Below are positions 49,962 to 64,000 of a stretch of 64,000 nt of DNA, in pieces. The DNA lies in NCBI RefSeq assembly GCF_006546625.1, contig NZ_VIAR01000002.1:62001-126000 (forward strand), given 5' to 3'. A model generated the notes under the pieces. It ran no database searches, was not told the DNA's origin, and saw only the letters and a list, made by a program, of their open reading frames with translations. This DNA comes from Haloflavibacter putidus. Lineage in GTDB: Bacteria; Bacteroidota; Bacteroidia; Flavobacteriales; Flavobacteriaceae. The position numbers were made by a program, and so were the translations under genes. Position 1 is the first letter of the stretch. The number at the start of each line of letters is the position of its first letter.

Positions 49962-50606
49962 TTAGCCTGCAATCTTTTTTAATAAACCCCGGTTTATTTC
50001 ATGTTTTCCTTCAAAGGGAAGAATTTCTAAATTCTCTTTTCCAAAAAGTTCTTCGGCGCGGGTAATTTCTTCTTTAACGCGTTTTGCGTTGAGGTATTCG
50101 TCTTGTTTTCCGTAAAGCAAACTAACTTTCGTTTCTTTTAAAAACTTAAAATCTTCTGCTGTTAATTCTTTAGGAATACCACCGGAGTGAATTACCAAAT
50201 CTGCGCAATCTATTTTTCGGCTGGCAAGCCATCGCATAATTACAGAAACCCCTTGCGAGTAGCCAAAAAGAATAAGGCGTTTATCGCCGGGTATATTTTC
50301 GTTTGTAAAAACGGCATCTAAATAATTTACTATATTTTCTGTTTCTTGCTTTGTGTTTTCGCGCGTTAACCAACTGGCACCAACATGTTTAAAATCTGTT
50401 TTTTGATAGTATTTAGATGGTGCTTGGGGTGCGATTATATAATTTTCTTCTTTATCTAATTGCGCGAAATATAGAATAAAATACTTACTCAAATAGCCTA
50501 AACCGTGGCAAGCAATCCATACATTTTTTGTTTTTTCTTGCAATTGGTTTCGGGTAGAGTAGGAGTTGGTTGTAGTATAAGAAACTTGCTTTTCTGCAGA
50601 AGCCAT
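49962..50606 (-). CDS. Phospholipase/carboxylesterase-family alpha/beta hydrolase
   Basis: The 214-residue alpha/beta hydrolase has the oxyanion segment VWIACHGLGYLSKYFILYF, the nucleophile elbow LFGYSQGVSVIMRWL (GYSQG with Ser) and, near the end, PFEGKHEINRG, holding the catalytic histidine. It resembles the family that includes esterase EstB and YpfH. The natural ester is unknown. It runs opposite to mazG and the menaquinone genes, with its own start near 50606, and no clear promoter was found. Confidence 0.85.
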   Translation of the reverse strand: MASAEKQVSYTTTNSYSTRNQLQEKTKNVWIACHGLGYLSKYFILYFAQLDKEENYIIAPQAPSKYYQKTDFKHVGASWLTRENTKQETENIVNYLDAVFTNENIPGDKRLILFGYSQGVSVIMRWLASRKIDCADLVIHSGGIPKELTAEDFKFLKETKVSLLYGKQDEYLNAKRVKEEITRAEELFGKENLEILPFEGKHEINRGLLKKIAG

Positions 50607-50700
50607 ATAGGTTGATTTTTGTATTTTTACAAAAGAAGTAAATAATTTTAAATTCTGCCGAAGCTTTTAAAAAAGCTTAGCCTTTTTACCAAGAAAAAAA

Positions 50701-51123
50701 ATGAAGTATACAAAAGAAGAAATATTATCGCGTTGTGCACAAATGTGCAAAAACACAATGATGGAAACCTTAGAAATGGAATTTATAGATGTTGGAGAAG
50801 ATTTTTTAACGGCTAAAATGCCGGTAACAACAAAAGTACACCAACCTGATGGCGTTTTGCATGGTGGCGCAATGGTGGCTTTGGCAGAAAGTGTTGGCAG
50901 TGCCGCCAGTTTTATATTTTTAGATGGCGAAAACTATTATATTCGAGGTATTGAGATTTCTGCCAATCATATAAAAAGTATTGCAGAAGGAGAGGTTTTT
51001 GCAAAAGCAAAAATTTTACATAAAGGCAGAACCACGCAGGTTTGGGATATTAAAATTCGGGATGCTGAAGATAATTTGATTTCGTTTGTTAAATTAACCA
51101 CTATCGCGTTAGCTAAAAAATAA
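50701..51123 (+). CDS. menI: Hotdog-fold thioesterase, probable DHNA-CoA hydrolase
   Basis: A 140-residue PaaI-family hotdog protein with GVLHGGAMVALAESVGSAAS (the HGG catalytic segment near 57-70) and RGIEISANHIKSIAEGEVFA. Its stop is 3 bases before the start of menF and menD follows, which makes it the likely 1,4-dihydroxy-2-naphthoyl-CoA thioesterase (MenI) of menaquinone synthesis. On sequence alone PaaI-type thioesterases are not substrate-specific, so the function is inferred from the operon. Confidence 0.88.
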   Translation: MKYTKEEILSRCAQMCKNTMMETLEMEFIDVGEDFLTAKMPVTTKVHQPDGVLHGGAMVALAESVGSAASFIFLDGENYYIRGIEISANHIKSIAEGEVFAKAKILHKGRTTQVWDIKIRDAEDNLISFVKLTTIALAKK

Positions 51124-51126
51124 ATT

Positions 51127-52242
51127 ATGACTACTGCATCGGCTTTTTTTGAGAGAATATCTACCCAGCTAAACAATAGTTTACCTTTTGTTGTGTATAG
51201 ATATCCAAACAGCAAAACCATAAAAGCGCAATTTCAAAACACGGCTACTTTAGAGTTTTTAGAAAGCTTTGAGCAAGAAGGTTTTATTTTTGCTCCTTTC
51301 GATACATCTAGTAAAACCATTTTTTTTGCTAATGAAGATGCAGAATGTTTTAGCATTTCGCAAGATATAGAAATGCCGGCCGTAAATTCTTCCGTAAAGT
51401 ATACGCCAAATATTCAGGAAAAAACGCAGCACGAGCATTTGGTGGAAAAAGCTATTGCGGAAATAAATAATACGGATTTAGAAAAAGTGATTGTTTCGCA
51501 CAATCCGGTTTTAGCTACGCAAACCCATGCTCTTGCATATTTTAAAAGTCTGTTGGCCATTTACAAAACGGCATTTGTTTACATTTGGTACCATCCGCAA
51601 GTTGGTTTATGGTTGGGTGCAACCCCCGAAACTTTACTACAAACCGAAGGCAATAATTTTAAAACAATGGCTTTGGCTGGCACACAAGTTTATCAAGAAA
51701 AAGAACTAAAGTGGCAGAAAAAAGAAATAGAAGAGCAAGCTTGGGTAACCCAATCTATTTTGGAAGATTTAGAAAGTAGCGGCGGCGCAGAAAGAATTTC
51801 AACTTCTAAAACTTATACGCATCCGGCGGGAAAAGTAGCACATTTACGTACCGATATTACCGGTGTTTTTAACAAAAAAAAATTAGGAGAAATAGTTACT
51901 GCTTTACATCCCACCCCGGCAGTTTGTGGTTTTCCTAAAAAAATGGCCAAAGATTTTATTTTAAAAGAAGAAAATTATAATAGGCAATTTTATACCGGTT
52001 ATTTGGGAGAATTGAATACCAAAGTGCAAAAAACACGCAATAAACGAAGCAGAAATGTAGAAAACTCTGCTTATAATCTAATAAAGCGCCAAAGCAATTT
52101 GTATGTTAATTTGCGTTGTATGCAAGTTTTAGAAAACAAAATTTTGCTATATGTTGGGGGCGGAATTACCAAAGATTCTAAGCCTATGGCAGAATGGGAA
52201 GAAACCTTAAACAAAGCTAAAACTATACTGCAAGTAGTATAA
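51127..52242 (+). CDS. menF: Isochorismate synthase
   Basis: A 371-residue chorismate-binding enzyme that converts chorismate to isochorismate, the first step of menaquinone synthesis. The C-terminal core holds YIWYHPQVGLWLGATPETLL, FKTMALAGTQVYQE, LHPTPAVCGFPKKMAKDFI (the P-A-V-C-G/P region), YTGYLGELNTK and YVGGGITKDSKPMAEWEET. It lies between the thioesterase and menD with 3- and 34-base gaps. The roughly 370 length is shorter than E. coli MenF (431), usual in flavobacteria. Confidence 0.94.
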   Translation: MTTASAFFERISTQLNNSLPFVVYRYPNSKTIKAQFQNTATLEFLESFEQEGFIFAPFDTSSKTIFFANEDAECFSISQDIEMPAVNSSVKYTPNIQEKTQHEHLVEKAIAEINNTDLEKVIVSHNPVLATQTHALAYFKSLLAIYKTAFVYIWYHPQVGLWLGATPETLLQTEGNNFKTMALAGTQVYQEKELKWQKKEIEEQAWVTQSILEDLESSGGAERISTSKTYTHPAGKVAHLRTDITGVFNKKKLGEIVTALHPTPAVCGFPKKMAKDFILKEENYNRQFYTGYLGELNTKVQKTRNKRSRNVENSAYNLIKRQSNLYVNLRCMQVLENKILLYVGGGITKDSKPMAEWEETLNKAKTILQVV

Positions 52243-52249
52243 TTAAGTT

Positions 52250-52257
52250 TATTTTTG
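52250..52257 (+). promoter_or_regulatory. Possible internal promoter element before menD
   Basis: TATTTTTG matches the -7 consensus in the 34-base menF-menD gap, 20 bases before the menD start. It may give extra menD transcription; low certainty in such an AT-rich gap. Confidence 0.28.
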
Positions 52258-52276
52258 AAGAAAAATACCAACTTCT

Positions 52277-54013
52277 ATGCAATATTCTAGCATTCCGCTT
52301 GCGCAGACCATTACTTTTTTATGTTTATCAAAAGATATTAATCATGTAGTAATTTCTCCGGGTTCTCGAAATGCTCCTTTAACGATAAGCTTTTCTAATC
52401 ATCCTGAAATTGAAGCGTACAGTGTGGTAGACGAGCGTTCTGCTGCTTTTTTTGCACTTGGTTTGGCGCAACAGTTGCAAAAACCCGTGGCACTTTGTTG
52501 CACCTCGGGCAGTGCACTTTTAAATTATTATCCGGCTATTGCAGAGGCTTATTATAGTGACGTTCCGCTGGTGATTATTTCTGCCGATAGGCCGGTAGAG
52601 CGAATAGATATTGGCGACGGACAAACAATTAGACAAAAAAATGTATTTGCCAATCATATTTTATATTCGGCCAACTTGTATTCTGAGTTGGTGGTAGAAG
52701 CTTTTCCGTTAGACGAAAAATTAAAGCAAAAACAGTTTGAAGCCTGTAAACATAATGAACGGGAAATAAATTTGGCTTTAAATACAGCTATAGAAAAAAA
52801 TGGTCCGGTACATATTAACGCGCCTTTCTACGAACCGCTTTATGGTCTTACCAATGCGCCAATTGTTGAGCCCCTAAAAATAGAACCTATTCGGGATGCA
52901 AAAACAATTTCCGCGAAAGCGTTAAAGCCTTATGCCAAGATATGGAATACAGCAAAACGAAAGTTGGTTTTGGTAGGCGTCAATAAGCCAAACGCCGTAG
53001 AGCAAGAGTTTTTAGAACAGTTAGCCGCAGATCCTTCTGTGCTTATCTTTACGGAAACTACTTCTAATTTACACCACAAGAAATTTATTACCAGAATAGA
53101 CAAACTTATTGCCCCGGTAGAAAATACGGCAGATGAGCGGCAATTTTTAAAAGACTTACAACCCGATGTTTTATTGACGTTTGGGGGCTTGATTATTTCT
53201 AAAAAAATTAAAGCATTTCTACGCAGCTATCAACCTACGCACCATTGGCACGTTGACCCAAAAAAGGCTTTGAATACCTACTTTTGCTTAAACAAACATT
53301 TTGATGTTAAGGCCAATATATTTTTCAAGGAATTTTTGCCGCTGGTAGAATTTCCGGAAAGCGACTATCAAAAAACTTGGTTAGCGATTAATAAAAAAAG
53401 AAATATTCATCACGAAAAATATATGCAAAGTATCCCTTTTTGTGATTTATTGGCTTTTAATATCTTGTTAGATAAAATTCCGCGAAAGCAAATTTTACAC
53501 CTTTCTAATAGTAGTATTGTGCGTTATGCACAGCTTTTTAAACTATCTTCAAGTTTGCAAGTTTATTGCAATAGAGGTACCAGTGGAATAGATGGTAGTT
53601 CTTCTACAGCTGTGGGAGCTGCCGTAAAAGCCCAGCATTCTACAACTTTAATTACCGGAGATTTGAGCTTTTTTTATGATAGCAATGCACTTTGGAATAA
53701 TTATATCCCACCTACTTTTAGAATTGTGATAATAAATAATCAAGGCGGCGGTATTTTTAGAATTTTGCCCGGTGCTAAAGAAACGTCTTACTTTGATACT
53801 TTTTTTGAAACCCAACACAAGTTTAATGCAGCACATTTGGCTGCTATGTATAATTTTGAATATATAAAAGCAACTGATAAACAAAGTCTGGAAGAATGTT
53901 TAGGTAATTTTTATACAGAAAGTGATAAACCTAAAATTTTGGAAATCTTTACGCCAAGAGAAGAGAATGATTTATTCTTAAAAAATTATTTTAAAAGTTT
54001 ATATGAAAACTGA
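52277..54013 (+). CDS. menD: SEPHCHC synthase MenD
   Basis: A 578-residue ThDP enzyme (2-succinyl-5-enolpyruvyl-6-hydroxy-3-cyclohexene-1-carboxylate synthase) of the menaquinone pathway. The N-terminal region has HVVISPGSRNAPLTISFSNH and the active-site glutamate segment SVVDERSAAFFALG; the C-terminal ThDP/Mg motif runs GDLSFFYDSNALWNN to IINNQGGGIFRILP. Length and motifs are intact. It is the last menaquinone gene here; menB lies 6 kb downstream. Confidence 0.97.
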   Translation: MQYSSIPLAQTITFLCLSKDINHVVISPGSRNAPLTISFSNHPEIEAYSVVDERSAAFFALGLAQQLQKPVALCCTSGSALLNYYPAIAEAYYSDVPLVIISADRPVERIDIGDGQTIRQKNVFANHILYSANLYSELVVEAFPLDEKLKQKQFEACKHNEREINLALNTAIEKNGPVHINAPFYEPLYGLTNAPIVEPLKIEPIRDAKTISAKALKPYAKIWNTAKRKLVLVGVNKPNAVEQEFLEQLAADPSVLIFTETTSNLHHKKFITRIDKLIAPVENTADERQFLKDLQPDVLLTFGGLIISKKIKAFLRSYQPTHHWHVDPKKALNTYFCLNKHFDVKANIFFKEFLPLVEFPESDYQKTWLAINKKRNIHHEKYMQSIPFCDLLAFNILLDKIPRKQILHLSNSSIVRYAQLFKLSSSLQVYCNRGTSGIDGSSSTAVGAAVKAQHSTTLITGDLSFFYDSNALWNNYIPPTFRIVIINNQGGGIFRILPGAKETSYFDTFFETQHKFNAAHLAAMYNFEYIKATDKQSLEECLGNFYTESDKPKILEIFTPREENDLFLKNYFKSLYEN

Positions 54014-54075
54014 ATTTTATGATTTTTTGTTTATATTTATAGCAAGAGATTAAGTAACCATTAAAATTTATTAAA

Positions 54076-54414
54076 ATGAGTAAACTAGACGAATTAGTAG
54101 GTAAGTATATTGAGGATGCCAATAAAATAGAAAGCAATCCGGATGTAGATTTAATACGTAAAATTGCTAAAAGTATGGGGCCATCTATTTATAATCAAGA
54201 TGCTTCCACCGTTTCTTCTTCAGACAAAAAAGAGTTGGAAACAGTTAAGAAAAATTTCTTGATGAAAAAGTTGGGATTAAGCGAATCTGATAATTTAGAT
54301 GAAGCGATTGATAGTGTTATGGAAAAATATGGAAAATCTAACAGGAATAAATATCGGGTAGTGGTCTATTATTTACTTGCGAAACATTTTAATAAAGAGT
54401 CTATCTATAAGTAA
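54076..54414 (+). CDS. DUF2853 family protein
   Basis: The 112-residue soluble helical protein matches DUF2853: MSKLDELVGKYIEDANKIES, VDLIRKIAKSMGPSIYNQDA and the C-terminal NKYRVVVYYLLAKHFNK. Family members are small helical proteins of unknown function, common after menD in flavobacteria. A hairpin terminator follows, so it may be the end of the men transcript or have its own promoter. Confidence 0.9.
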   Translation: MSKLDELVGKYIEDANKIESNPDVDLIRKIAKSMGPSIYNQDASTVSSSDKKELETVKKNFLMKKLGLSESDNLDEAIDSVMEKYGKSNRNKYRVVVYYLLAKHFNKESIYK

Positions 54415-54444
54415 ACCACGCATTTTTAAAAGAAACATACTAGA

Positions 54445-54480
54445 AAAGTATAGAGTAAGTAAAAGCTAACTTTATACTTT
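54445..54480 (+). terminator. Terminator hairpin after the DUF2853 gene
   Basis: A 12-base arm pair (AAAGTATAGAGT with ACTTTATACTTT, one mismatch) with a 12-base loop and a following T run ends the plus-strand men/DUF2853 unit. Confidence 0.65.
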
Positions 54481-54555
54481 TTTTATTTTACGGAATTATT
54501 TTTTTGATAAATTTACAGAGTTTGGTATCTTCTGTTTTAATTGGTGCGATATAGA

Positions 54556-54987
54556 TTAAATACTGTTATGTACTTTTTTACCAAAGTATCCAAAAATTAA
54601 ATTAATTATTACCACCAAAACTGTAAAACCTGCTAGAACGTTGTATATGCCTAATCCGGCCAAACATCCGGCAGCAGCACTACACCAGATTGTTGCGGCA
54701 GTAGCTAATCCCCAAATTTTGTCAGATTTCTTTTGTTTTATAATAACCCCGGCACCTAAAAAACCTACGCCAACTATAATTTGACCAATTATACGAGTAA
54801 GGTCTGCGTTGGGTTCGTTATGAAAAAGTGTAGAAATCATTACAAAAATTGTAGCTCCTAAGGCTACCAAAATATTGGTTTTTAAACCCGCAGGTTTGCC
54901 TTTTATTTGCCTTTCTAGACCCATGCACAAACCCGCTAGAGTTGCGGCCCCGGCTTTGATTAAAAAATCTGTAAAAACAATTTCCAT
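54556..54987 (-). CDS. MgtC/SapB family membrane protein
   Basis: The 143-residue protein has four membrane segments and the MgtC signature LAGLCMGLERQIKGKPAGLK near 16-35, with ADLTRIIGQIIVGVGFLGAG and AAAGCLAGLGIYNVL. Members affect Mg2+ homeostasis and virulence by binding ATP synthase or Mg transport. The start at 54987 (MEIVFTDFLIKAG) is used rather than an upstream ATG (55071) that lies within the preceding channel gene. It follows that channel gene by 28 bases and may be cotranscribed. Confidence 0.87.
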   Translation of the reverse strand: MEIVFTDFLIKAGAATLAGLCMGLERQIKGKPAGLKTNILVALGATIFVMISTLFHNEPNADLTRIIGQIIVGVGFLGAGVIIKQKKSDKIWGLATAATIWCSAAAGCLAGLGIYNVLAGFTVLVVIINLIFGYFGKKVHNSI

Positions 54988-55015
54988 TTGATAAATTTTA
55001 AGGTAGGTAAATTTT

Positions 55016-56032
55016 TTATTTATCTTTTTTAGAACGGGCAATTTTAACGTCTTTCCAGTTCCAACCGTCATTTCTTATATAACCTTTGATTTTTCTTCTG
55101 CGTTCTTCCATATTTTTAATTTTTTTCAAACATTCTTTTTTGTTCTCCATTGTAAATTTATCCGATAGCTTTTCGAAATAATCAAAAGGAGGGGCTTCTT
55201 TTGCTGCGAGAATAAAGCTAGAATCAAGGCGCTCAAAAAAGTTGTCTAATGCTCCCCTTAATATATACCAATGGTATCTCTTTGTAGATTTATCTATCTG
55301 ATAAACTTCCTGAATGGTTATTGTTTCGTCTAACACGGCTAAACTAAGTGTTACGGCGTGTGCTTTTTTATTAGAATGAAAATAGTGCAAAATAGGATAA
55401 GCCAAATGTCTTTCGCCATGCTTTATAAGCAGGTTTTCTAAGTTACTAAAACGCTGATATAGCGGTTCAAAATTATCACCATTATAACCATTTTCTATTA
55501 TTTCTTCTGGCGTGGCGCCAAGCTTATCTATATGTACTGCCAAAGTTCTTTTATCTACAACAGCTTGAAGAACCGGTAAGATATAAGAAATACCCAAACT
55601 TATAAATATCATAGAATTGAGTCCCATAATATTAGAGACAATTTGCCAAACACCGGAGCCTGCACGATAATCGCCATTTCCTAAGGAAGTTAAAGTATAA
55701 CCCACATAATATACTTGTCCTAGAGCAGTTGCCGGTTCTTGCGTGTGGTTATTAAGAACCGAATTATGGTCTGATATAAATATTAAGCTATAGCCAAACC
55801 ATATTAGCGTTATCCACATAAACAGAAAAGTTAAAAGAATAATTGGACCGCAAATATTTAATATTTTGTTATCGCCATTTCCACGGGCTATAATAAAAAA
55901 GAGACGCCATACTTTCTTAGATACCCAATTAGAAAGTTGTCCGGCACCATTTATATTAACTATGGTTTTAAACATATCTACCAATACTAATAACTGTACC
56001 GCTATTCCTAAACCAATAAGTAAAATTTTCAT
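55016..56032 (-). CDS. Two-transmembrane ion channel-like protein
   Basis: A 338-residue protein with three hydrophobic segments in its N-terminal half (MKILLIGLGIAVQLLVLVDM; IILLTFLFMWITLIWFGYSL; IMGLNSMIFISLGISYILPV) around a pore-loop sequence YYVGYTLTSLGNGDYRAGSG (about 108-127). This is the K+-channel-type pore helix and filter, but with S-L-G-N-G-D in place of V-G-Y-G-D. The C-terminal 180 residues are a soluble helical domain. Two-pore-domain family similarity supports an ion channel; ion selectivity is uncertain. It is the first gene of a short operon with MgtC. Confidence 0.8.
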   Translation of the reverse strand: MKILLIGLGIAVQLLVLVDMFKTIVNINGAGQLSNWVSKKVWRLFFIIARGNGDNKILNICGPIILLTFLFMWITLIWFGYSLIFISDHNSVLNNHTQEPATALGQVYYVGYTLTSLGNGDYRAGSGVWQIVSNIMGLNSMIFISLGISYILPVLQAVVDKRTLAVHIDKLGATPEEIIENGYNGDNFEPLYQRFSNLENLLIKHGERHLAYPILHYFHSNKKAHAVTLSLAVLDETITIQEVYQIDKSTKRYHWYILRGALDNFFERLDSSFILAAKEAPPFDYFEKLSDKFTMENKKECLKKIKNMEERRRKIKGYIRNDGWNWKDVKIARSKKDK

Positions 56033-56084
56033 TTAATCTTTAGTTCTTTAATTACACTATAAATATCTTATAATTTATGTATAG

Positions 56085-56138
56085 AAACCTACTGTTTAAA
56101 TATATTTTTAACACTAAGGCGGTGTTATTTGTAGGTTT
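56085..56138. repeat. Nested inverted repeat upstream of channel and GntA-like operons
   Basis: Outer arms AAACCTAC (56085-56092) and GTAGGTTT (56131-56138) enclose inner arms TAACAC (56109-56114) and GTGTTA (56122-56127) around TAAGGCG. This could be a structured RNA or a protein binding site in the 276-base divergent gap, or chance. A guanidine riboswitch consensus was not recognised. Confidence 0.35.
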
Positions 56139-56308
56139 AATTCAATTTTGATGTAAAAAAACTTTCCGTAAAGAATATTTTAAAGAAATACAAGAAAATT
56201 ATTTATAGAATAATCAAGCTGTTAAATTTAATTAAATTGCTTATAAGATAATCCTAATTTGTTTACTACTTTTCACAAAAGCTTCTATTTTTAATAAAAA
56301 ATATAAAG

Positions 56309-56953
56309 ATGACAACAAGTAAAGAGTGGTTTAAAGAATGGATTTTAGAAAACAACCATCCTTGTTTAATGGCACAAACAGTTTTTAAACAAGATCACGT
56401 ATTTCTAAAAGATTATGAAGGTTTTGGCACTCAAAAATCTACTGATAAACTATTAGAAGATTTGGAAACCTATCTTAAAAAATATGACTTTACGGATAAC
56501 AATTTCTTTACATTTATTGCTTGTTTCCCAAACGATTCTACAAACTCCGAAATTAATTTTGAAGAAAAACTGTGGCAACAATTAAATTTTTTACATCAAA
56601 AAGATGATTGCGATTGGGACGAGACTGTAGAGAAAAATCCGGAGAGCTCTAACTTTAGTTTTAGCCTAAAAGGTCGTGCTTTTTATATTGTTGGTATGCA
56701 CGAGAAAGCTTCTAGGTTGGCGCGTAAAACACCTTTTCCAACCATTGTTTTTAATTTACACTGGCAGTTTGAGAAGTTACGGGAAATGAGCACCTACCAA
56801 ACAGTTAAAAATAGAATTAGGAAACGCGATAAAAAACTACAAGGCAATATTAATCCTGTTTTAAAAGATTTTGGTGAAGATTCTGAAGCGAAACAGTATA
56901 GTGGCAGAATGCCAGAGAAGGAGTGGAAATGTCCTTTTCATCCTAAAAACTAA
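56309..56953 (+). CDS. YqcI/YcgG family heme protein, GntA-like N-hydroxylase
   Basis: The 214-residue protein matches the YqcI/YcgG family: HPCLMAQTVFKQDHVFL near 17-33, FYIVGMHEKASRLARKTPFP near 129-148, IVFNLHWQFEKLREM, IRKRDKKLQGNINPVL and AKQYSGRMPEKEWKCPF. Family members GntA, DcsA and RohS are heme-dependent enzymes that N-hydroxylate or N-oxidise guanidino or aminoimidazole compounds such as arginine or enduracididine derivatives. The substrate here is unknown. It is the first gene of a tight three-gene operon with a PaiB-like flavoprotein (4-base gap) and a DUF1989 protein (11-base overlap). Confidence 0.88.
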   Translation: MTTSKEWFKEWILENNHPCLMAQTVFKQDHVFLKDYEGFGTQKSTDKLLEDLETYLKKYDFTDNNFFTFIACFPNDSTNSEINFEEKLWQQLNFLHQKDDCDWDETVEKNPESSNFSFSLKGRAFYIVGMHEKASRLARKTPFPTIVFNLHWQFEKLREMSTYQTVKNRIRKRDKKLQGNINPVLKDFGEDSEAKQYSGRMPEKEWKCPFHPKN

Positions 56954-56957
56954 CTTT

Positions 56958-57566
56958 ATGTATCAACCAAAAAAGTATAAAAAAAACTCTACGCAATTTG
57001 CCAAAAAATTAATAAAGAATAATCCTTTTGCGCAATTTATTATACAAGGTAAACAGCTTTTGGCAACACATATTCCTGTTATGTTAGAAGACCAAAAAGA
57101 TGGTTTTAGGTTGGTTACACATTTGGCCAACAACAATCCGCAAGCAGATTTTTTGCACGATAAAAAAGAAGCTTTATTAATTTTTTCGGGCCCGGATGCT
57201 TATATTTCGTCCAGTTGGTACCAAGAGAAAAACATTAGTACTTGGGATTATTCTGCAGTTCATATAAATTGTAAAATAAAAATTCAGACAAAAGAAGAGC
57301 TGGTAGCCTCTTTAAAAGATTTAGTTTATTTTTTCGAAAAAGAACAAGCTAATCCGTTATTTTATAAAGATTTACCAGATAAAATGATTGAAGAGCATCT
57401 ACCCGGTATAACGGGTTTTTACTGTTACCCGCAAACTATTCGTGGAGTAGGGAAATGGCACCAAACATTTGAAAAAAAAGATGTAAAAAATATTATTACC
57501 GAATTACAACAAACCTGTCCACACAACCCATTAATTAACGATTTAAAGAAAGAGCATGATTTGTAA
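56958..57566 (+). CDS. PaiB-family FMN-binding protein
   Basis: A 202-residue split-barrel flavoprotein-like member of the FMN-binding negative transcriptional regulator family (PaiB): MYQPKKYKKNSTQFAKKL, FRLVTHLANNNPQADFL, VLIFSGPDAYISSSWYQEKN (here with LLIFSGPDAYISSSWY), STWDYSAVHINCK and KMIEEHLPGITGFYCYP. Bacillus PaiB regulates protease synthesis, but most members are uncharacterised flavin binders. The start at 56958 is chosen because the alternative (56871) lies inside the GntA-like gene. It may supply reduced flavin or electrons to its partner, or act on the N-oxidised product. Confidence 0.85.
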   Translation: MYQPKKYKKNSTQFAKKLIKNNPFAQFIIQGKQLLATHIPVMLEDQKDGFRLVTHLANNNPQADFLHDKKEALLIFSGPDAYISSSWYQEKNISTWDYSAVHINCKIKIQTKEELVASLKDLVYFFEKEQANPLFYKDLPDKMIEEHLPGITGFYCYPQTIRGVGKWHQTFEKKDVKNIITELQQTCPHNPLINDLKKEHDL

Positions 57567-58134
57567 AATAGAAAAACAAAGCGGTACCGCCTTTACCTTG
57601 AAAAAAGGTCAACAATTAAAAGTGATAGATCCTATGGGAGAGCAAGTAAGCGATATGGTTTTATTTAATGCACAAGACCCGCGCGAAAAACTTTCTTCCG
57701 GCAAAACCTTAGATTTTCAAGAAAAAATTTTAATTGGAAAAGGCGATTTTTTATGGTCAAACCGTTGTAATAAAATGATGGAAATTTTAGAAGACACCAA
57801 CGGTAGAAACGACTTTTTATTGGCACCTTGTAGTCCGGAAACATTCGAGATTATGTATGGCAATAATGACTATCACCCGAGTTGCTTTGAGAATTTATCT
57901 AAAAATTTAAAGAAATTTGAAATAGAACCGGATGATATTCCTACGGCATTTAATATTTTTATGAATGTGCAATGGGATCAAGATGGCAACCTATCTGTAG
58001 AGCCACCATTAAGCAAAGCGGGAGATTATCTTCTGTTTGAAGCGAAAATGGATTTATTGATTGGTATAACCGCGTGCTCTGCAGAAGACAGCAACAATGG
58101 CTCTTTTAAACCTATTCATTACGAAATTCTTTAA
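57556..58134 (+). CDS. DUF1989 / urea carboxylase-associated family protein
   Basis: The 192-residue protein fits DUF1989: MICKIEKQSGTAFTLKKGQQ, DPMGEQVSDMVLFNAQDP, FLLAPCSPETFEIMYG, YHPSCFENLSKNLK, FNIFMNVQWDQDGNLSVEPP and AKMDLLIGITACSAEDSNNG. Two DUF1989 proteins form carboxyguanidine deiminase (CgdAB) in guanidine breakdown, and others stand beside urea carboxylase. Here a single copy overlaps the PaiB-like gene by 11 bases and follows an N-hydroxylase-family gene, suggesting hydrolysis of a guanidino-type intermediate. Its exact substrate is unproven. Confidence 0.87.
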   Translation: MICKIEKQSGTAFTLKKGQQLKVIDPMGEQVSDMVLFNAQDPREKLSSGKTLDFQEKILIGKGDFLWSNRCNKMMEILEDTNGRNDFLLAPCSPETFEIMYGNNDYHPSCFENLSKNLKKFEIEPDDIPTAFNIFMNVQWDQDGNLSVEPPLSKAGDYLLFEAKMDLLIGITACSAEDSNNGSFKPIHYEIL

Positions 58135-58188
58135 AACAAGCGAAGCATAACTATAGAAACGAAATGTTATATAGAGTTATTTATTCAC

Positions 58189-58196
58189 TATCTTTG
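58189..58196 (+). promoter_or_regulatory. Candidate TAnnTTTG promoter of the CvfB-like gene
   Basis: TATCTTTG matches the -7 consensus 17 bases before the ATG at 58214. Confidence 0.45.
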
Positions 58197-58213
58197 CGCC
58201 CTAAATTACAATT

Positions 58214-59056
58214 ATGCTAAACTTAGGTCAATACCATACCTTAATTATAGACAGAGATACGCCTCCAGGTTTGTTTTTAAAAGACGAAACCGGTGAAAAA
58301 GAAAATGAAGTTTTATTGCCCAATAAATACAAACCCGAAAGTTTTGAAATTGGCGACGAGATAAGGGTTTTTGTTTATTTAGATCACGACGAACGTCCGG
58401 TAGCTACTACGTTAAAACCGTTTGTAAAATTAGATGAGTTTGGATTTTTAAAATGCGTAGAGGTTTCTAAAATTGGTGCATTTTTAGATTGGGGATTAGA
58501 GAAGCATTTATTTGTTCCGTTTAAGGAACAAGCCTATCCTATGAAAAAGAACGAATGGTATTTGATTTTTTGCTATTTAGATGAAGAAACCAACAGGTTA
58601 GTAGCTTCCAGCAAGGTAAACCATTTCCTTACCAATGCAGAGTTAACCGTAGAACCTTACGAAAAAGTAGACCTAATTGTCACCAATAAAACAGACATTG
58701 GTTTTAACGTTATTGTAAACGAGCTGCACCAAGGTTTGGTTTATCATGACGATATTTTTCAAGATTTAAAAACCGGCGATAAACTTAGTGGTTGGGTTAC
58801 CAAAACCAGAAAAGACAACAAAATAGACATAGCTTTACAACGTCCCGGCTACAGAAGTATAGAGCCAAATGCAGATATAATTTTAAAAGAATTAGAAATG
58901 CACGGTGGCTTTTTGCCTCTAAACGATAAAACTGCGCCAGGAGTAATAAAAGATACTGTAGAAATGAGTAAAAAGAGCTTTAAAAAAGCAATTGGTACAC
59001 TCTATAAAAAACGCGAAATTAGTATAGAAGAAGACGGGATTTACCTGCGTAAATAA
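58214..59056 (+). CDS. cvfB: CvfB-family S1 RNA-binding protein
   Basis: A 280-residue protein with tandem S1-like domains and a C-terminal winged-helix: MLNLGQYHTLIIDRDTPPGLF, PESFEIGDEIRVFVYLDHDE (about 47-66), FLKCVEVSKIGAFLDWGLEK and the C-terminal SKKSFKKAIGTLYKKREISI. CvfB proteins bind RNA and affect virulence and stress genes in other bacteria. Its 3' end overlaps the convergent hypothetical gene by 16 bases. It lies between the 54.5-58.1 kb block and menB, a position usual in relatives. Confidence 0.9.
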   Translation: MLNLGQYHTLIIDRDTPPGLFLKDETGEKENEVLLPNKYKPESFEIGDEIRVFVYLDHDERPVATTLKPFVKLDEFGFLKCVEVSKIGAFLDWGLEKHLFVPFKEQAYPMKKNEWYLIFCYLDEETNRLVASSKVNHFLTNAELTVEPYEKVDLIVTNKTDIGFNVIVNELHQGLVYHDDIFQDLKTGDKLSGWVTKTRKDNKIDIALQRPGYRSIEPNADIILKELEMHGGFLPLNDKTAPGVIKDTVEMSKKSFKKAIGTLYKKREISIEEDGIYLRK

Positions 59057-59553
59057 AATACGGGTTGGTTGCGGTCGTAACGGTTGCGGTGTAAATAATA
59101 ACCGGTATTTAATAAAGGTTGGCGCACATCTTCGTATACTTCATTTTTAATTCCGCCGTCTAAGGTGCGTTTACCATAATAATTTAAATCTACATTGGTA
59201 CGTTGATTAAAATTGGTTTGGTTATAATAAACTTGCACCGTAGAATTTATTTGTTCTAATTGCCTTTGCGGAAATTCAGTATTGGTTTTTTGATTAGACG
59301 CCATATAAACTTCTTCGGGGGCAAAAATATTTACTTTTTTCTTTGCGGAATAACTGCTTATAAGCGGCAAATTAAAATTGCCAAAAACGTGGTTGGTTGT
59401 TTTTAAAGTGGTTAAACTTGGTTGTATAGATAAACTAAACAAAGAAGTCTCTACTTCGTTATTTACCGCCGGCAGATCTAAAGATTGGCTTTCTTGTGCC
59501 AAGAGTGACTGGCATAAAATAACAGAAAAAAGTAACAAAAATAATCGCTTCAT
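59041..59553 (-). CDS. Small secreted hypothetical protein
   Basis: I do not recognise a family. The protein of about 170 residues has a signal peptide (MKRLFLLLFSVILCQSLLAQ); the start at 59553 gives a normal n-region, though a start at 59565 adds four residues. The mature part is polar, rich in asparagine, glutamine and tyrosine (QVYYNQTNFNQRTNVDLNYY), with no cysteines. It may be periplasmic. The last codons overlap the CvfB gene. It precedes no operon partner in the same direction except the next, also secreted, hypothetical gene upstream. Confidence 0.68.
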   Translation of the reverse strand: MKRLFLLLFSVILCQSLLAQESQSLDLPAVNNEVETSLFSLSIQPSLTTLKTTNHVFGNFNLPLISSYSAKKKVNIFAPEEVYMASNQKTNTEFPQRQLEQINSTVQVYYNQTNFNQRTNVDLNYYGKRTLDGGIKNEVYEDVRQPLLNTGYYLHRNRYDRNQPVFYLRR

Positions 59554-59610
59554 TCTCAAAAACATATTTTGTTTAAAAGTAACAAATAGTATGCAAAACT
59601 ACTCTTTTAA

Positions 59611-59988
59611 TCAATAATTTTTACGAATGGGCGGAGTAGTGGGAATTCCAACAAGCTTAAAATTTCTTGGCTTCTCTATAACATAATAGCTAATATTGGG
59701 ATATAAATTTTCTAACAAATAATATCTTTCCGCGTAAGCTTCTACTATATTTTGATACTTTAAGTATTGGTAATTTAAATTTTTAAAAGCCTTGTATTCA
59801 AAATTTTTAGTTTTTGCTTTATTTACTACTTGATATAAGTGGATTGGTAAAACAGATTTTTGTTTTTTATCTAAATCTTTAAAACTTAAAAACTGCAATT
59901 GTAAAGAATCTGCAGTAATGCCACTTTTTTGTGCATTGCCGTGTAGAAAAATAAAAAGAAGTAAAAACAAGACAATTGGTTTTTTCAT
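59611..59988 (-). CDS. Small secreted hypothetical protein
   Basis: I do not recognise a family. The 125-residue product has signal peptide MKKPIVLFLLLFIFLHGNAQ and a lysine- and tyrosine-rich mature part (KDLDKKQKSVLPIHLYQVVN, YQNIVEAYAERYYLLENLYP) with helical character. It is read in the same direction as the secreted protein 57 bases downstream, so the two may be cotranscribed. Both appear small, exported and lineage-specific, with no assigned function. Confidence 0.65.
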   Translation of the reverse strand: MKKPIVLFLLLFIFLHGNAQKSGITADSLQLQFLSFKDLDKKQKSVLPIHLYQVVNKAKTKNFEYKAFKNLNYQYLKYQNIVEAYAERYYLLENLYPNISYYVIEKPRNFKLVGIPTTPPIRKNY

Positions 59989-60113
59989 AATAGCATAATT
60001 TGCTTCCCTAAATATAATAAAAATTATAATCTATTGAATAGCTTATATAGCGTGTATTTTTATTATTTTGTTCTTTTTAAAAGCTGTAATTTTACAAAAA
60101 ACATTTTAAGACT

Positions 60114-60953
60114 ATGAGTAAAATAGAGTGGAAGACCGCAAAGGAATACGAAGATATAACGTACAAAAAATCAAATGGCGTAGCCAGAATTGCTTTTAAC
60201 AGACCAGATGTGCGCAATGCTTTCAGACCAAAAACAACTTCAGAATTATTAGATGCTTTTCACGATGCGCAAGAAGATACCGACATTGGCGTAGTTTTAC
60301 TATCTGCCGAAGGACCTTCTTCTAAAGACGGCGTTTATAGTTTTTGCAGCGGTGGCGATCAAAAAGCGCGCGGTCACCAAGGTTATGTGGGAGAAGATGG
60401 TTATCACCGACTTAATATTTTAGAAGTGCAGCGTCTCATTCGCTTTATGCCAAAAGCCGTAATCTGTGTGGTGCCGGGTTGGGCAGTAGGCGGCGGTCAT
60501 AGTTTACACGTGGTTTGCGATATGACTTTGGCCAGCAAAGAACACGCAATTTTTAAACAAACAGATGCAGATGTAACCAGTTTTGATGCCGGTTACGGTT
60601 CTGCTTATCTTGCCAAAATGGTAGGACAAAAAAAAGCACGCGAGATTTTCTTTTTAGGAAGAAATTACTCGGCTCAAGAAGCTTATGAAATGGGAATGGT
60701 AAACGCCGTAATACCACATGACGATTTAGAAGATACCGCCTACGAATGGGCGCAAGAAATTTTAGCCAAAAGCCCAACTTCTATAAAAATGCTAAAATTT
60801 GCTATGAACCTTACCGATGACGGAATGGTGGGGCAACAAGTTTTTGCCGGAGAGGCAACACGCTTGGCTTATATGACAGAAGAAGCCAAAGAGGGCCGAA
60901 ATGCTTTTTTAGAAAAAAGAAAACCTAATTTTGAAAAGAAATGGCTTCCGTAG
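60114..60953 (+). CDS. menB: 1,4-Dihydroxy-2-naphthoyl-CoA synthase
   Basis: A 279-residue crotonase-fold enzyme of menaquinone synthesis that cyclises OSB-CoA to DHNA-CoA. Recognisable segments are YKKSNGVARIAFNRPDVRNA (17-36), YSFCSGGDQKARG with the oxyanion glycines (about 77-89), VVPGWAVGGGHSLHVVCDMT and TDADVTSFDAGYGSAYLAKM. It is full length for MenB. Its last 13 bases overlap the following PH-domain gene. The other men genes lie at 50.7-54 kb; menA and menC/menE are outside the window. Confidence 0.96.
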   Translation: MSKIEWKTAKEYEDITYKKSNGVARIAFNRPDVRNAFRPKTTSELLDAFHDAQEDTDIGVVLLSAEGPSSKDGVYSFCSGGDQKARGHQGYVGEDGYHRLNILEVQRLIRFMPKAVICVVPGWAVGGGHSLHVVCDMTLASKEHAIFKQTDADVTSFDAGYGSAYLAKMVGQKKAREIFFLGRNYSAQEAYEMGMVNAVIPHDDLEDTAYEWAQEILAKSPTSIKMLKFAMNLTDDGMVGQQVFAGEATRLAYMTEEAKEGRNAFLEKRKPNFEKKWLP

Positions 60954-61477
60954 AAGAAACTAATTTTACCAACCAACAGATAGATTTGCAAACCTTGCCC
61001 AAGTATGAAGATTTGCATTTTCATACAATTAATAAACGCAACCTTAGCAAAACCTTGCTACAAAGCGGCATATTTGCTTTGGTGTTAGTTTTGCTTAATT
61101 TTCTGGCTTACTGGTTTTTAGCATCCGGTTTTTGGTTGCCCATTATCACAAGCATTTCTGGTGTATTAATTTTGCTTTTGGTAATACATTGTTTTTTGGC
61201 TCATAAAGCTTTAGGTTACGCTTTACGCGGAAAAGATATTGCCTTTAAACACGGGTATATTGTAGAAGAAATAACGCTAATTCCCTTTAATAGAATTCAA
61301 CATGTGTCTACTTCTCGCAGTTTTTTAGATAAGTTGTTTAGCCTTTCGCAATTAAATATTTATACTGCCGGTGGACAGGCAAGTGACGTAAGTATTCCCG
61401 GCTTAACCCCAGATTTGGCACTTCAACTAAAACAAGAATTAGCCAATAAAATTAGCGAAAGTGTAGATGCAGACTAA
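60941..61477 (+). CDS. Bacterial PH-domain membrane protein (YdbS-like)
   Basis: The 178-residue protein has two membrane segments (about 42-85, LLQSGIFALVLVLLNFLAYW and ITSISGVLILLLVIHCFLA) and then a bPH_2-type domain: ALRGKDIAFKHGYIVEEITL, IPFNRIQHVSTSRSFLDKLF, LNIYTAGGQASDVSIPGL. This resembles YdbS of Bacillus, which acts with YdbT. It starts inside the end of menB (13-base overlap) and its stop overlaps the next gene by 11 bases, so translation is coupled. YdbST-like pairs are linked to antimicrobial resistance in Bacillus; here the role is unknown. Confidence 0.85.
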   Translation: MASVEETNFTNQQIDLQTLPKYEDLHFHTINKRNLSKTLLQSGIFALVLVLLNFLAYWFLASGFWLPIITSISGVLILLLVIHCFLAHKALGYALRGKDIAFKHGYIVEEITLIPFNRIQHVSTSRSFLDKLFSLSQLNIYTAGGQASDVSIPGLTPDLALQLKQELANKISESVDAD

Positions 61478-63014
61478 AAGTTTTTCTAAACCCGAGCGCC
61501 AATCTAAAATTGGTATTTTGTTTATATTTCTTAGAACTATTTATAAACTTTTACGGGGTTTCTGGGTGTTGGCAGTCTATTTTATTTTGGGAGATTTTTT
61601 TTCCGGCCTCACTTGGTATATGGTTGCAGGTTCTATTTTATTAGGTTTGGCAGCCTTGATTTACAGTTATGTAGATTATCTTAAGTTTCAGTTTCATATT
61701 AATTATTCTGCACAAGAATTTGTTTTGAGCAAAGGCGTTTTCAATACAGATAATACCGCTATTCCTTTCTCCAAAATACAACAAGTCTATTTAGAGCAAT
61801 CTATTTTACAACGTATTATTGGTATTAAAAGCGTTGTGGTAGACACGGCCGGTAGTAAAGAAAAAGAAATAAAAATTAAAGCTTTACAGCAAGAAAAGGC
61901 CTCCCACTTAAAAGAGATTCTGTTAAACCTGGTAGAAAATATAGAAACCGAAACCGTAACAGAAAAAGAGTTTCAAACGGAAGAAGCCAGCGTACAAAAT
62001 AAAAAAGAGCCGGAAAAAGAAGAAGAATGGACGTACCGTTTGTCTGTTGGCAGACTACTTAAAATTGGGTTAACCTCCAATTATCTGCGCGGTATAGGCT
62101 TGTTATTTTTTCTTTACGGAACAATTCAAAGCGAGATAAACCAATTTGCTGTAGATAACGAAGTAGTAGGAGATGCATCTGAATTTATGTCTAACTCTAC
62201 CGAAATTATTTTTAAAAGCGCTTTGTACATTTTTATTGGCGCAATTTTACTTTTTTTTGCCGGTTTGCTTATAACCGTAGTAGAAGTTTTTATAAAATAT
62301 TACAATCTTAAATTAACGCAAACCAAAACTAGTTTGCTGTTAGAGATGGGTTTAAAAACCACTAAACATATTGCGCTAAAGCCAAAAAGGGTTCAGCTTT
62401 ATCGGGTGCTTACCAATCCCATTCAAAAAAAGCTAAATTTATATGAGGTGCAATTGGCAATTGCCGGAAGCACAGATGGTTTAAGTAAAAACAAAGTAAA
62501 AATCCCCGGCTTAAAACAAGAGTTTTTAAAACATATTCATCGTTTTATATTTGATAAACCTTCTGAAAACGGAACGGTTTATAAACCTCATAAGATTTGG
62601 ATTTTCCGTAAAGTAGTACGTTTTTCTATTATTCCTCTATTATTAATAACAGGATTAAACTTTATTTTTGAGTTTTCAGAATGGCATTATATTCTTCTAT
62701 TTGGTGCTGTATTTTTAATTTTAGTAAGTGTTTATCAGTTTTTTGCTTATAGAAAGACTTATCTAAGTATATCGCCAAATTTCATTAGAAAAAATATAGG
62801 TTTATGGAATCAAAAACAGGAAATTGCGGAGATATTCAAATTTCAAGGCGTTAGTATAAAGCAGCCTTTTTGGTACAAAAAAAGAGGGCTAGTAAATATT
62901 ACTCTGCATACAGCCGGGGGCGATTTGCATTACAGATTTATTTCTGAAAGTGTAGCTAAAGAAATTAATTATATACTGTATAAAATAGAAACATCCACAA
63001 AAGCGTGGATGTAA
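61467..63014 (+). CDS. Bacterial PH-domain membrane protein (YdbT-like)
   Basis: The 515-residue protein has membrane segments near 20-65, 205-230, 250-280 and 385-425. It contains three bPH_2-like units, each with an I-P-F-x-K/R-I-Q-type strand: AIPFSKIQQVYLEQSILQRI, ALKPKRVQLYRVLTNPIQKK and AEIFKFQGVSIKQPF. A charged linker (EKEFQTEEASVQNKKEPEKE) sits after the first. The pair with YdbS-like protein, coupled by overlap and following menB, suggests a membrane complex. In Bacillus, YdbS/YdbT confer resistance to amylocyclicin; the activity of this pair is not known. Confidence 0.85.
   Translation: MQTKSFSKPERQSKIGILFIFLRTIYKLLRGFWVLAVYFILGDFFSGLTWYMVAGSILLGLAALIYSYVDYLKFQFHINYSAQEFVLSKGVFNTDNTAIPFSKIQQVYLEQSILQRIIGIKSVVVDTAGSKEKEIKIKALQQEKASHLKEILLNLVENIETETVTEKEFQTEEASVQNKKEPEKEEEWTYRLSVGRLLKIGLTSNYLRGIGLLFFLYGTIQSEINQFAVDNEVVGDASEFMSNSTEIIFKSALYIFIGAILLFFAGLLITVVEVFIKYYNLKLTQTKTSLLLEMGLKTTKHIALKPKRVQLYRVLTNPIQKKLNLYEVQLAIAGSTDGLSKNKVKIPGLKQEFLKHIHRFIFDKPSENGTVYKPHKIWIFRKVVRFSIIPLLLITGLNFIFEFSEWHYILLFGAVFLILVSVYQFFAYRKTYLSISPNFIRKNIGLWNQKQEIAEIFKFQGVSIKQPFWYKKRGLVNITLHTAGGDLHYRFISESVAKEINYILYKIETSTKAWM
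62991..63012. terminator. Possible terminator hairpin at the end of the PH-domain gene
   Basis: An 8-base perfect stem ACATCCAC/GTGGATGT with a 6-base loop overlaps the last codons and stop region, and is followed by a T-rich stretch. It lies between convergent genes. Confidence 0.4.
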
Positions 63015-63047
63015 CTATTTTTATTTGTATTTAAATTGCAGGTTTAT

Positions 63048-64000
63048 TTAACGCAAAGCCGTAAATTTACTTGGGTTTACTTCATTAAAAATTCCGTAAA
63101 CCTTTTCAAAAATATCCTCGGCAGAAGGTTTTGAGAAATAATCGCCATCTGTACTGTACGCAGGTCTATGCGCTTTGGCAGATAAAGTTTGCGGTTTACT
63201 ATCTAAATATCTATAAGCATTTTGTTTGTCTACAATTTCAGATAAAATATAAGCAGAAGCTCCTCCTGGCACATCTTCATCAATAACCAATAATCTGTTG
63301 GTTTTTTGCACACTTTTTACAAGATCTTGGTTAATATCTAAAGGCAACAGCGATTGTACATCTATAACTTCTGCATCTATACCAATTTTCGCCAATTCCT
63401 CTGCGGCTTCCTCTACAATTCTAAAAGTAGAACCGTAAGAAACCAAGGTAATATCTTTACCTTCTCTTACTGTTTCTATAACGCCAATAGGCGTTTTAAA
63501 TTCGCCTAAATTATCTGGCATTTTTTCTTTAAGACGGTAACCGTTAAGCGATTCTACAATAAGTGCCGGCTCGTCGCTGGCCAATAAAGTATTGTAGAAA
63601 CCAGCGGCTTTGGTCATGTTTCTTGGCACCAAAACGTGAATTCCTCTAATTAGATTTATAATACCACTCATTGGCGAACCGGAGTGCCAGATACCTTCTA
63701 AACGGTGTCCACGCGTTCTAACAATTAATGGTGCTTTTTGTTTTCCTTTGGTACGATATTGTACGGTTGCCAAATCGTCACTCATAATTTGCAACGCATA
63801 CAAAAGATAATCTAAATACTGAATTTCTGCAATAGGGCGTAAGCCTCGCATTGCCATCCCGATACCTTGACCCAAAATGGTGGCTTCTCTAATCCCGGCA
63901 TCGTCTACACGTAAAACGCCGTGTTTTTCTTGCAAGCCTTCCAAACCTTGGTTTACATCGCCAATATTACCGGAATCTTCCCCAAAAATTAAGGTTTCCG
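63048..64000 (-). CDS. 2-oxoacid dehydrogenase E1 component, beta part (5' end outside window)
   Basis: The frame stays open to the window edge (upstream codons read [20 protein letters not shown] before the internal Met at 63944), so only about 317 C-terminal residues are seen. They match the transketolase-like pyrimidine-binding and C-terminal domains of E1-beta: AIEYxLD-type [75 protein letters not shown] and [14 protein letters not shown]. Flavobacterial proteins of this type fuse alpha and beta halves to about 800 residues. Branched-chain or general 2-oxoacid oxidation is likely; substrate is uncertain. Confidence 0.85.

Follow-up and report, generated by a model that had tools for sequence, protein, structure and literature searches.

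Conserved pairing of a predicted haem N-oxygenase gene with a DUF1989 gene, enlarged by a PaiB-like gene in Haloflavibacter putidus

Three adjacent genes and the conserved pair among them

We analysed a 64,000-nucleotide stretch of the Haloflavibacter putidus genome (contig NZ_VIAR01000002.1, positions 62,001 to 126,000; hereafter the window), in which three consecutive genes on the + strand, here called Y, F and D, form a compact group. Y (56309..56953) encodes a 214-amino-acid YqcI/YcgG-family protein, predicted to be a Cys-ligated haem N-oxygenase. F (56958..57566, ATG start) encodes a 202-amino-acid FMN_bind_2/PaiB-like protein, predicted to be a His-ligated haem protein of the piperazate synthase/NohD group. 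D (57556..58134) encodes a single-domain DUF1989 protein of 192 amino acids, a predicted metal enzyme. Y and F are separated by 4 bases, and F and D overlap by 11; re-deriving the coordinates gave exactly the positions and spacing of the initial annotation, to the base. A longer, TTG-start version of the F open reading frame (ORF; 56871-57566) would overlap Y. The families named in that annotation are also borne out, with Pfam scores far above the cut-offs for Y (PF08892, YqcI_YcgG, positions 1-211 of 211; 204.6 bits, cut-off 27), F (PF04299, FMN_bind_2; 147.4 bits, cut-off 22.4) and D (PF09347, DUF1989, the sole domain found; 199 bits, cut-off 27). The 2.92-Mb source genome holds one PF08892 match and one PF09347 match, and the closest named relative of Y comes from an uncultured Mesonia (locus L027, 90% identity). 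Inverted repeats upstream of Y are only AT-rich pairs as expected there, judged without a shuffle control.

Each of the three proteins served as a query against 199 Flavobacteriaceae genomes. Y matches were found in 24 genomes, 22 of them of the type seen here; the other two (G145, 5e-5; G175, 2e-4) are weak matches to distant YqcI proteins that have a different kind of gene next to them, and we set them aside. D matches occur in the same 22 genomes, and the pair is adjacent in every one. The matched stretches are 8-60 bases apart in 16 of them; in the other 6 the distance is 469-652 bases, and F fills the gap in 5 of those 6. In a second survey, 395 genomes drawn from the phylum Bacteroidota, PF08892 was present in 9 genomes from three families, and D adjoins Y in 9/9. 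Four of these (G000, G125, G157, G160) were already counted in the 22, and five are new. A D search of the same 395 genomes returned these 9 and G344 only, which was set aside with its two neighbouring UAAP-like D matches (26-29% identity). A class-wide Y search (395 genomes, 7 matches) added G856, also with Y-D; G263, a weak Y match with stop codons, was left out of that count. Among 80 genome loci retrieved by Y similarity alone, D lies downstream on the same strand in 78; 44 loci show the order Y-F-D, 32 have Y-D and no F within the locus, and in 2 F is placed elsewhere in it. The remaining 2 loci lack D. The Y-D arrangement is more frequent than chance would produce. The conserved unit is the Y-D pair, with D an obligate partner of Y in the Bacteroidota genomes searched.

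F is a lineage-specific accessory to this pair. FMN_bind_2-like matches to F occur in 121/199 Flavobacteriaceae genomes, and the window's own F type (at least 48% identity; the next match is at 42%) occurs in seven, all of them Y-D carriers (hypergeometric 8e-8, a value that ignores relatedness). The initial annotation had presented the three genes as one unit, to be judged by conserved co-occurrence in related genomes. That expectation holds for Y and D (22/22 and 9/9 genomes); for F it holds in a sub-lineage only, and 32 of the 80 Y loci are Y-D without it. In G100 (L133), F and Y-D are about 95 kb apart, and the ORFs on either side of F look like DUF421 and SDR proteins, kinds that flank Y-D in other genomes. 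The flavobacterial loci L024 and L025 carry a distant YqcI-type gene after an ORF read as coenzyme-A-ligase-like, and look like a separate subfamily. The Bacillus subtilis control genome has matches to both PF08892 and PF09347; its ycgG and the DUF1989 gene ycgI presumably lie close together.

Predicted cofactors and active sites

Residue conservation was read from alignments of 118 (Y), 52 (F) and 112 (D) rows. These hold several genomes twice (L146-L165 and L190 are partly from the same genomes as L027-L106) and include one frameshift-shortened D (Hymenobacter) and one partial F (L058). Y matches its family, which includes AglA, ChmN, GntA and DcsA, over its whole length, and scores 291.2 bits against the GntA equivalog model NF041366 of NCBIfam (cut-off 145). 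A 25-row Y profile retrieved the AglA structures with an E-value of 1.5e-15. Residue numbers in the Y-AglA comparison were counted by hand on the printed alignment. Cys44 of AglA, its haem ligand (PMC12866846), corresponds to Cys19 of Y (codon 56363..56365, + strand), which is kept in 118/118 rows, and in ChmN replacement of Cys47 leads to loss of haem (PMC10849742). The two haem-propionate arginines of AglA, Arg166 and Arg200, are kept as Arg139 and Arg171, and Phe182 as Phe154. From this alignment we are highly confident that Y binds haem through Cys19, in agreement with the initial annotation, which had named it a haem N-hydroxylase-type protein. Two weak single-sequence PDB matches of Y to a glycerophosphodiester phosphodiesterase were taken as chance; the profile found AglA.

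The likeness to AglA does not extend to the whole substrate pocket. Gln177 and Arg179, which touch the substrate in AglA (PMC12866846), are the point of difference, and of three contacts Y keeps one, Phe154. The characterised YqcI/YcgG members N-oxygenate guanidines (PMC12866846, PMC10849742), and by analogy with them a guanidino compound is a mildly favoured substrate for Y. Y further differs from AglA, ChmN, GntA and DcsA in having an obligate DUF1989 partner and in the absence of reductase or pathway genes beside it; the neighbours scanned at the window locus are DUF2853, MgtC, ion-channel and CvfB-like genes, and no genome search for other guanitoxin pathway genes was made.

D matches 3oru (E 9.9e-22) and trimethylamine N-oxide (TMAO) demethylase, Tdm (E 1.2e-11), in the PDB by sequence, and its AlphaFold2 model (predicted local distance difference test, pLDDT, 89.9) superimposes on 3siy with a TM score of 0.93. 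Its Cys92, Cys110 and Cys174 (codons 57829-57831, 57883-57885 and 58075-58077, together spanning 57829..58077 on the + strand) are kept in 111, 111 and 110 of 112 rows and correspond to C263, C279 and C343 of Tdm, while Asp33 and His107 correspond to D198 and H276. In Tdm the three cysteines bind zinc and H276 is an iron ligand (PMC12560246). The conserved cysteines make it very likely that D binds zinc. D differs from Tdm in lacking its extra N-terminal domain and its GcvT-like domain; the latter was looked for at the C-terminus of D, which consists of DUF1989 only.

The initial annotation had also linked the DUF1989 protein to the carboxyguanidine deiminase CgdAB, and this link is weak. D shares the DUF1989 fold with CgdAB, and the three cysteines and Asp33 with its UAAP2 subunit. 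In contrast to D, a single gene outside the UAAP clade, CgdAB consists of UAAP1 and UAAP2 subunits encoded beside a urea/guanidine carboxylase. D scores far below the UAAP model cut-offs, the genome has no second DUF1989 gene, and no urea carboxylase in it passes the cut-off (best TIGR02712 542 bits versus 1303.85). Three ureohydrolases are present, all on other contigs. In a tree of 28 DUF1989 sequences, 20 Y-linked D proteins are split from two UAAP1 and two UAAP2 sequences by a branch supported at 99/94; the fork holding exactly these 20 has 88/95, and the long outer branches are unsure. On the scores, the single gene, the lack of a carboxylase above the cut-off and the tree position, we reject D as a member of CgdAB. 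All 20 Y-linked D proteins, and no other row, carry the full set Ser47, Gly49, Asp53, Ser179, Asn180, Phe184 and Lys185; single positions of the set are shared outside the 20, most of them by a Clostridioides protein. Asp33, Cys92 and Cys110 have equivalents in both UAAP2 rows and in neither UAAP1 row. This fits the description of one CgdAB subunit as an inactive cognate (PMC11271267).

For F, a phmmer search gave PaiB (4.3e-21), NohD (4.4e-15) and piperazate synthase (3e-11) as the nearest solved relatives by sequence. NohD has been solved with haem, as has PaiB (9VYC), and according to the structure titles NohD was crystallised with N-hydroxylated ornithine; Thr98 and Lys167 were mutated in the substrate complex. 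The predicted F model (pLDDT 85.1) matches PipS, LnzB, haem-bound PaiB and NohD best, and split barrels of the FAD and FMN type more weakly. With the piperazate synthases, NohD and PaiB, F shares the fold and the set His55, Asn60, Thr95 and Lys166, kept in 51, 50, 52 and 52 of the 52 rows. These correspond to His61, Asn66, Thr102 and Lys173 of piperazate synthase, and Thr95 and Lys166 also to Thr98 and Lys167 of NohD. His61 of the piperazate synthase SbPZS, the equivalent of F His55 (codon 57120..57122, + strand), binds haem (PMC13274692), and F very probably binds haem as well.

Two positions set F apart from the piperazate synthases, whose Asn63 and catalytic Tyr150 are replaced by Ala57 and Met143. 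NohD has Ala59 and Arg144 there, so that F differs from NohD too, by Met143 in place of Arg144; across the 52 rows this position is Met in 41, Ile in 7, Leu in 3 and Glu in 1. His168, present in 52/52 rows of F, stands where PaiB, NohD, LnzB and the F-like protein of L136 have the Ser of a K-L-S-Q motif. PaiB is described as binding haem without N-N activity, and most enzymes of the piperazate synthase group as carrying a flavin mononucleotide (FMN)-binding annotation (PMC13274692). We read F as a putative haem protein for N-hydroxy compounds, with a specificity of its own and distinct from piperazate synthase. The initial annotation had called it a flavoprotein for redox support, a label that the nearest solved relatives, with the haem-ligand His and the catalytic Thr and Lys kept, render doubtful. 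A role of F as a flavin reductase was put aside because both its nearest solved relatives and its best fold matches are haem proteins.

Plasmid-borne copies and genomic surroundings

A plasmid search with Y matched 20 records, of which 12 loci were read. D accompanies Y in eight of them, from Chryseobacterium, Comamonas, Deinococcus ficus, a Comamonadaceae strain, Sphingomonas, Skermanella, Novosphingobium and Hymenobacter, so that the plasmid-borne pair reaches the Alpha- and Betaproteobacteria and Deinococcus. The D of the Hymenobacter plasmid (L211:5626-6209) is divided between two reading frames, and the gene table does not list it. In a tree built from 30 Y proteins, those linked to D form one group with the Rahnella and Streptomyces proteins (100/100), from which the Priestia type and L024/L025 are separate; some members of this group lack an adjacent D. 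Since the pair occurs across phyla and on plasmids, and the D-linked Y proteins fall in one tree group, it is either old or readily moved.

Fourteen of the 20 plasmid Y records bear the name gntA. This name stems from a broad model and may mislead, because D is next door in 7 of the 9 gntA-named loci read (the exceptions are listed as two Streptomyces loci and Rahnella). The records call Y of L206, L207, L208 and L210-L216 guanitoxin GntA, and no such pathway is listed in the stretches read. The Y relative on the Rahnella plasmid (L210:4980-10265) belongs to a different cluster, which also encodes an SDR, a protein with a 2Fe-2S centre, an exporter of the LysE type and a protein with a MOSC domain. 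As mARC-type MOSC proteins are reductases of N-hydroxylated compounds, this cluster may be another N-oxidation pathway.

We compared the neighbours of 26 loci, made up of 25 stretches of 20 kb and a section of the window about 17 kb long, with those in 35 control stretches, likewise of 20 kb, drawn from 20 of the 26 case genomes; G106, one of the 22, was left out. At least one of ten stress, repair-type or membrane queries was present in 19/26 loci against 2/35 controls, a comparison whose significance is inflated because the families were picked after the loci had been seen. DUF421/YetF was found in 10 loci, SemiSWEET in 9, a 148-amino-acid membrane protein in 8, and a 184-amino-acid membrane protein and DUF892 in 6 each, all against 0/35 controls; SDR was found in 11/26 against 2/35 (10 against 2 in a second count). 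We take DUF421, SDR, DUF892, catalase, LigD and Ku to be stress-type families. AraC-type neighbours (13/26 against 9/35, p 0.046) were not used for the stress reading. We found no direct precedent for this neighbourhood in the open-access literature.

Genes of these kinds also lie within the cassette. LigD phosphoesterase, ligase and polymerase ORFs separate F and D in two Christiangramia-type loci (L032:7260-9787 and L063:7254-9782), the same F-D gap of about 2.5 kb is present in L035, L036 and L083, and L037:7198-7809 has the phosphoesterase alone. A long catalase ORF stands between Y and D in L028:6875-9010, and LigD follows D on the Chryseobacterium plasmid. These surroundings make a link of the cassette to stress slightly favoured, and we regard it as a good lead. 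The ion-channel-like ORF beside the cassette in the window (55016-56032, - strand) has a 34% identical relative (L026:381-1400) next to a D-less Y of G111, and recurs in 3/80 Y loci only.

Proposed function and alternatives

Taken loosely, our reading is a route in stress physiology that begins with N-oxygenation of a guanidino compound by Y and includes cleavage of the product by D and dehydration of an N-hydroxy group by F; by analogy with characterised relatives we give it a probability of about 0.5. Y-D would be a conserved, partly plasmid-borne two-gene enzyme cassette, enlarged here by F. Y, with its Cys-thiolate haem, would use O2 and electrons from a general cellular reductase to oxygenate a small metabolite at a guanidino (or amidino-like) nitrogen. 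D, as a single-subunit metal enzyme, would then act on the N-oxygenated group and, most likely, hydrolyse a C-N bond next to N-OH with the help of its metal. F, with its His-ligated haem, would add a lineage-specific further step that strips water from an N-hydroxy group. We infer these cofactors and reaction types from the relatives. The cassette would serve stress physiology and not a peptide natural product. That D acts on the product or the substrate of Y is likely. The DUF1989 precedents, CgdAB on a guanidine-type substrate (PMC11271267) and Tdm on an N-oxide (PMC12560246), work on the two bond types expected in the Y product.

Several observations weigh against this reading. Gln177 and Arg179 of AglA are Asn149 and His151 in Y (116/118 and 115/118 rows), so that a guanidine substrate is not assured, and the equivalent of the Tdm iron ligand is kept in 105/112 D rows, not in all. 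The partnership has exceptions: G111, one of the 22 genomes, holds a second Y without D nearby (L026); the genomes of the D-less loci L075 and L105 hold D elsewhere, next to F (in that of L075, F and D lie together and Y apart); and within the stretches read D is absent from the Rahnella, two Streptomyces and Priestia plasmid loci. As for stress, beside the post hoc choice of families, the window's own grouped neighbours are MgtC alone, apart from Y, D and F, and catalase (3 against 0, p 0.07), LigD parts (1-2 against 0, p 0.18 and 0.43) and Ku (1 against 0, p 0.43) are singly not significant. The Fisher and hypergeometric values also ignore the relatedness of the genomes.

The same evidence bears on other roles. 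The cassette could be catabolic, with Y-D(-F) scavenging nitrogen from free guanidine or another guanidino compound as an alternative to guanidine carboxylase and CgdAB and supplying ammonia or urea for growth. That DUF1989 includes a carboxyguanidine deiminase (PMC11271267) speaks for this, as do the compact and patchy occurrence of the cassette (22/199 genomes) and the lack of a urea carboxylase above the cut-off in the genome, which would call for another route. We nevertheless consider it unlikely, as D lies outside the UAAP clade, no guanidine riboswitch or any other Rfam match was found in window positions 50000-64000, and the recurrent neighbours include no transporter or urea-handling gene save SemiSWEET and a 439-amino-acid transporter-like group (7 loci). 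Detoxification, in which Y activates a toxic guanidino, amidine or hydroxylamine-type compound from the environment or made under stress and D and F clear the product, would account for the patchy distribution, the plasmids in several phyla and the stress-type neighbours, all usual for resistance traits. However, patchiness and plasmids suit any accessory trait, nothing here names a toxicant, and hydroxylation does not obviously render a guanidine harmless, which leaves this role improbable.

A third possibility is biosynthesis, in which the three enzymes would supply genes elsewhere with a building block that is N-oxygenated or carries an N-N bond, by analogy with the pathways to guanitoxin, argolaphos or piperazic acid. 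Relatives of Y and F serve natural-product pathways (PMC13274692, PMC12866846, PMC10849742), and the score of Y in the GntA model, twice the cut-off, points the same way. Against it, the seven proteins scanned in the window, cassette members and neighbours together, are ordinary, the genes near the cassette include no recurrent group of the peptide synthetase type, the same two genes are kept in very different surroundings, and F has replaced the Asn63 and Tyr150 of piperazate synthases; we doubt this role as much as the previous two. Further removed still would be a two-protein counterpart of nitric oxide synthase acting under stress, in which Y makes an N-hydroxyguanidine, D splits it into hydroxylamine, HNO or nitric oxide and a urea-type product, and F tunes or removes N-hydroxy species. 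Such a system, if real, would represent a regulated source of reactive nitrogen of a new class, partly spread by plasmids.

The enzyme families of Y, F and D are already known; for the Y-D pair, its spread and the optional F we found no description in the open-access literature. Through the linkage, a branch of this young haem-enzyme family that is still uncharacterised gains a constant partner, which makes the chemistry of the branch directly testable, with the substrate of D probably being the product of Y. Should the link to stress be borne out, the N-oxidation of guanidines would count as a physiological trait in many bacteria, beyond its place as a step in natural-product pathways.

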